44,752 nucleotides of DNA from a virus. The notes below the pieces were generated by a model that worked only from the letters and a program-made list of their open reading frames with translations, had not been told where the DNA came from and ran no database searches. The translations under genes were made by a program, and so were the position numbers. Shown here one piece after another: positions 22,488 through 22,562 of the stretch. The DNA lies in the IMG/VR virus record IMGVR_UViG_3300034407_000682, positions 1 to 44,752 of that record; one strand, 5' to 3'. Within the stretch, counting starts at the first letter, position 1, and each line of letters opens with the position of its first letter.

Positions 22488-22562
22488 ATGATATGGGAAA
22501 AACCAACATACATAGATATGAGATATGGCTTTGAAGTTACGATGTACATAAACATGCGTTAA
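22488..22562 (+). CDS. pqqA: PqqA-like PQQ precursor peptide (24 aa)
   Basis: The ATG is preceded by a strong AAAAGGAG site at 9-base spacing. The peptide core [16 protein letters not shown] and the final Arg follow the PqqA consensus (M-W-x-K-P-x-x-x-D-x-R-x-G-x-E-V-T-x-Y-x-x-x-R), with one extra residue near the start. Glu16 and Tyr20 occupy the positions of the Glu and Tyr that PqqE cross-links to begin PQQ synthesis. Length matches the 23-24-residue family. No pqqB, C, D or E is in the window, so host enzymes would be needed. The stop overlaps the stop of the opposing gene at a GTTAAC palindrome. Confidence 0.88.
   Translation: [24 protein letters not shown]

Follow-up and report, generated by a model that had tools for sequence, protein, structure and literature searches.

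A free-standing pqqA in the genome of an HTVC115P/HMO-2011-like phage and its probable role in supplying the host with PQQ precursor

The stretch of DNA analyzed here, which we refer to as the window, is a virus record from IMG/VR with a length of 44,752 bases. Its plus strand carries (22488..22562) a pqqA gene for a 24-amino acid precursor of PQQ in which E16 and Y20 are in place, and our sequence analyses confirm that this is a PqqA-family peptide encoded by a phage without maturation genes of its own. We consider it probable that this ORF is a functional phage pqqA which feeds extra, consumable PqqA to the host PqqD and PqqE, and in this way sustains PQQ. The carrier is a marine phage, as the window also encodes a ribonucleotide reductase (RNR), DNA polymerase, primase-helicase, terminase, SU10-type portal, tail fibre, and lysozyme, and pqqA, a host-type metabolic gene situated between phage genes in a phage genome, can be regarded as a candidate auxiliary metabolic gene.

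The identity of the peptide is supported by its translation, by two curated models, and by a comparison with shuffled sequences. The Pfam PqqA model PF08042 scored the window ORF at 35.4 bits (E=1e-8, cut-off 21.1), and the NCBIfam equivalog TIGR02107 at 41.8 bits (E=6.6e-11, cut-off 20), so that the curated cut-offs of both models are passed and the lack of a family match, which an earlier note on this DNA had listed among possible grounds for dropping its reading, was not what we found. A PqqA HMM whose training set left out the window sequence gave 54.3 bits for the window, compared to no more than 10.5 bits in 30 dinucleotide shuffles, and a degenerate PqqA pattern occurred once in the window and never in 100 shuffles. 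Apart from the 22488-22562 ORF, the whole record has no PqqA match, and no PDB chain was found to be similar in sequence to the 24-amino acid peptide. The same earlier note had described a 24-residue PqqA-like ORF preceded by a ribosome site, in which Glu and Tyr are spaced by three residues, and both features hold: E16 and Y20 are separated by V-T-M, and the ribosome-binding region (22473..22487, plus strand) abuts the stop codon of the preceding gene, orf81, and contains a AAAGGAGA core located approximately 8 nt 5' of the ATG. This site, AAAAGGAGA, reads TTAAAAGGAGATATTTACA-ATG when written out, and a near-identical AAAAGGAGAT motif lies 5' of pqqA in all 11 relatives.

In the window, pqqA is the last gene of a plus strand run of curli-type genes, FecR, a CHASE2-adenylate/guanylate cyclase (20426..22222, identified by Pfam CHASE2 and Guanylate_cyc), and orf81 (22227..22472, a protein of unassigned function). 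This run converges on two minus strand features, namely orf71 (phrog_27180, 22559..22774), which overlaps the pqqA stop codon and forms a conserved border of the pqqA site, and the small and large subunits of the phage RNR (22771..25613), which we used as an anchor to compare filled and empty sites. The region upstream of pqqA (15544-22222) encodes CsgG and CsgF, both related to curli secretion, in addition to FecR and the cyclase; at least 600 cyclase matches were seen in viral contigs, with relatives in phages HTVC008M and Melnitz. At the junction between the cyclase and orf71-RNR, pqqA is present in 11 viral contigs that belong to two lineages: lineage A, the window's own, where the cyclases are 98-100% identical, and lineage B, where identity to lineage A is 92% for the RNR small subunit, 72% for the cyclase, and about 60% for orf71. 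The orf81 gene is found in pqqA-carrying lineage A contigs and was not found in those of lineage B, one of which (L204/L289) has pqqA directly after the cyclase. It is also found in four contigs (L122, L123, L125, and L133; RNR small subunit 87-90%) in which orf81 adjoins orf71 and pqqA is absent, which shows that pqqA is gained or lost as a unit. In the other RNR-anchored relatives, many of which are represented by fragmentary contigs, no pqqA was found beside the RNR, and because most relatives with RNR identity of at least 79% have no adjacent pqqA, the gene is dispensable there.

Where it is present, the gene is under constraint. Between lineages A and B, 9 of the 75 bases of pqqA differ, with three residue changes and 21 of 24 residues kept, which corresponds to a pN of 0.08, a pS of 0.36, and a ratio of 0.21, calculated over few sites. 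A similar pN/pS of 0.19 was obtained over 110 distinct viral pqqA coding sequences, even though this value is biased downward, as several positions were fixed by the search pattern. R12, a position left free in that pattern, is invariant over the 110 sequences in spite of being encoded by five different codons. Lack of conservation of the ORF was another of the refuting outcomes envisaged in the earlier note, and the 11 contigs, the two lineages, and a pN/pS of about 0.2 speak against it. The same can be said of the loss of E or Y in related phages, as four substitution-pattern scans returned no genuine viral PqqA without E16 or Y20. These scans covered most substituting codons, leaving out Glu-to-Asp and position-20 stop codons, and they were narrower than the intact scan in that position 13 was limited to Phe/Tyr-like codons; in the viral collection as used for them, the intact pattern was found in at least 120 contigs. 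The sole match to an E-lost pattern (L368) has a GC content of 54% and no PqqA leader, and was rejected as unrelated to PqqA.

As the earlier note had stated, no other pqq genes accompany pqqA. The PqqB, PqqC, PqqD, and PqqE families were not found among the window ORFs scanned, which hence hold no pqqABCDE operon with adjacent pqqB-E, and PqqE is absent across the whole record. The window ORFs scanned did not include a recognised PQQ dehydrogenase either, and the PQQ methanol/ethanol dehydrogenase family is absent from the window and from every viral record tested, so any benefit of the peptide must run via host enzymes. With regard to what this host might be, the window terminase is nearest to those of pelagiphages HTVC115P/103P/104P (65-67%), followed by HMO-2011-type phages; these nearest terminases come from phages of SAR11 and Roseobacter, which we counted against the supply role. 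A strict pattern that favours the window type of peptide was found in 2 of approximately 85,000 species genomes, both Methylophaga, and the closest host peptides found were gammaproteobacterial, this being the only class sampled. These results provide a hint that the host of the window phage could be a gammaproteobacterial methylotroph.

Viral pqqA genes are not limited to this locus. Using degenerate DNA patterns for the 24-amino acid peptide to gather viral loci, we found intact pqqA in at least 120 viral contigs, where the flanking genes match phage families, among them those of the major head protein, a terminase, an exonuclease, and an endolysin. By tblastn, pqqA was found in nine phage records, of which five were inspected in addition to one metagenomic phage. 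The cultured carriers, all phages of Methylophilales/Methylophilaceae, are Melnitz, Venkman, MEP301, MEP401/402, and P19250A, and a metagenomic podovirus carries the gene as well. None of the inspected records has pqqA annotated, and plausible ribosome sites precede most of the inspected cultured and metagenomic phage copies. In Melnitz and the metagenomic podovirus, an antisense ORF is annotated over pqqA; the deposited hypothetical ORF on the opposite strand, seen at L282 (Melnitz-1, 1467-1575) and L287 (1452-1580), is probably the reason why pqqA was missed there. In P19250A (KX815270.1, approximately 28094-28153), the PqqA-like ORF is unannotated and has a AAGGAAAT site, and this phage was stated to encode none of the putative auxiliary metabolic genes considered in the work on a Lake Baikal methylotroph virus (PMC7678222). 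PqqE was found in none of 41 phage records, and in both of two positive controls. Matches in Acinetobacter phage MD-2021a were set aside due to an adjacent pqq operon on a contig that looks bacterial: this 144 kb sequence (CAKLQF020000010.1) contains ppk as well as a pqqA-pqqB-pqqC-pqqD-radical SAM run, and resembles a bacterial chromosome.

In the role that we propose, the infecting phage would translate additional PqqA, host PqqD would bind it, and host PqqE would cross-link E16 to Y20, after which a host protease together with PqqB and PqqC would complete PQQ. The PQQ supply, raised or sustained in this way, would serve PQQ-dependent dehydrogenases, probably methanol dehydrogenase, whose activity would then direct energy and carbon flow into phage production. 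Recognition of the phage peptide by host PqqD is only assumed here, given that the window peptide differs from typical host PqqA at residues 4, 9, 22, and 23. The precursor alone would be enough, because each PQQ made uses up one PqqA molecule, whereas PqqB-E can act again and again. Methylotrophs, in fact, follow the same dosage logic in multiplying free-standing pqqA themselves, and this is one reason why we favour a supply role. In Methylophagaceae, pqqA was found in 47 of 57 genomes, with up to nine copies; across the loci examined in this family (L350-L367), multiple copies, from 2 to 9 and sometimes in tandem, are general, which parallels the situation in Methylophilaceae, reported to carry 3-12 pqqA copies and usually one pqqBCDE set (PMC4109929). 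Of the five pqqA copies in a strain that makes PQQ from methanol, three are located outside the operons, and pqqA3, which belongs to these three, has one of the two highest expression levels (PMC9851590). Based on these genomes and reports, it is normal for methylotrophs to have free-standing copies of pqqA.

Other explanations need to be weighed against this one. A decoy or competitor peptide that occupies PqqD/PqqE and lowers host PQQ, with SAM, iron-sulphur enzymes, or carbon being redirected, would agree with a substrate that is carried alone and differs from common host PqqA at the four residues mentioned above. Such a peptide, however, would not require both cross-linked residues and would gain by losing one of them, and no viral form lacking E16 or Y20 was found in the four scans; because both are kept, we regard a decoy as unlikely. 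The earlier note had left supply and decoy both open, and here we favour supply, as the substrate core of the viral peptides is intact and subject to purifying selection; this preference is one that we infer from the combined evidence. Retention of the cross-linkable core would also be compatible with maturation by host PqqD/E into a cross-linked peptide or PQQ that serves purposes unrelated to dehydrogenases, whether as redox protection, as a signal, or to interfere with competing phages, and a PqqA-annotated RiPP family was reported to be co-expressed with phage-defence genes, although this is a correlation only (PMC11118758). We think this option quite improbable, as PqqE was found beside viral pqqA in no record tested, no pqqB-E family was found among the window ORFs scanned, and the named hosts all belong to a PQQ-using group of methylotrophs.

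It could also be argued that pqqA is a captured host gene that happens to sit between convergent operons, where insertions are tolerated, and brings the phage no gain, and both the presence/absence polymorphism at one site and the small size and low cost of the gene would fit such a scenario. The purifying selection seen when lineages A and B are compared, the retained ribosome sites, and recurrence of the gene in several unrelated phage types argue against a neutral passenger, to which we assign a low probability. Last, an ORF of just 24 codons might arise by chance, and bacterial sequences are sometimes deposited as phage, as the MD-2021a contig with its bacterial-type pqq operon illustrates; a chance ORF or host DNA contaminating the contig is nonetheless extremely improbable and refuted by scores far above those of the shuffles and by the 11 contigs that share the same site with phage genes on either side.

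The supply of PqqA to the host remains therefore our preferred reading, and neither a viral PqqA nor this idea is new. A viral PqqA with this role was proposed in 2020 for the Lake Baikal methylotroph virus VP_266 (PMC7678222), and a sediment study from 2026 also lists a virus-encoded pqqA (PMC13188868); the window pqqA joins these known examples. What appears to be new is how common free-standing viral pqqA is, and its unannotated presence in cultured methylophages. In the literature searched, with subscription papers outside its scope, no other description of a stand-alone pqqA in OM43 phages was found. More broadly, it seems fairly likely to us that methylotroph phages carry free-standing pqqA as a recurrent auxiliary gene, which unrelated phages have acquired on several occasions and gene callers have overlooked because of its approximately 24 codons, and that it allows control of a host cofactor via the consumable peptide alone, mirroring the multiplication of pqqA by the hosts. 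If so, few metabolic genes on phages would be as small as pqqA, which would exemplify the principle of supplying the component that a pathway consumes, and PQQ, hence methanol oxidation, would be a target for phages of abundant aquatic methylotrophs. Cultured pairs of hosts and pqqA-carrying phages exist, such as Melnitz on OM43 strain H5P1, which makes this idea directly testable.

When compared to known systems, the window peptide resembles PqqA of the gammaproteobacterial methylotroph Methylophaga in spacing, in E16 and Y20, and in the YIN-R tail, and the comparison with methylotroph PqqA called for in the earlier note yielded 74% identity over residues 2-24; unlike the stand-alone phage copy, however, the host PqqA shares a genome with pqqE. 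Melnitz, Venkman, MEP301, MEP401/402, and P19250A, like the window, carry a free-standing pqqA for a peptide of 23-24 amino acids with E and Y intact, although the cultured methylophage peptides are of the ...(V/I) sequence type, while that of the window is of the Y....R type. VP_266, a Lake Baikal Methylophilaceae virus population compared here by its description, likewise encodes a PqqA for which this role was proposed (PMC7678222), but it is a T4-like freshwater virus that encodes a methanol dehydrogenase, whereas the window represents an HTVC115P/HMO-2011-like phage in which pqqA was found with no PQQ dehydrogenase.
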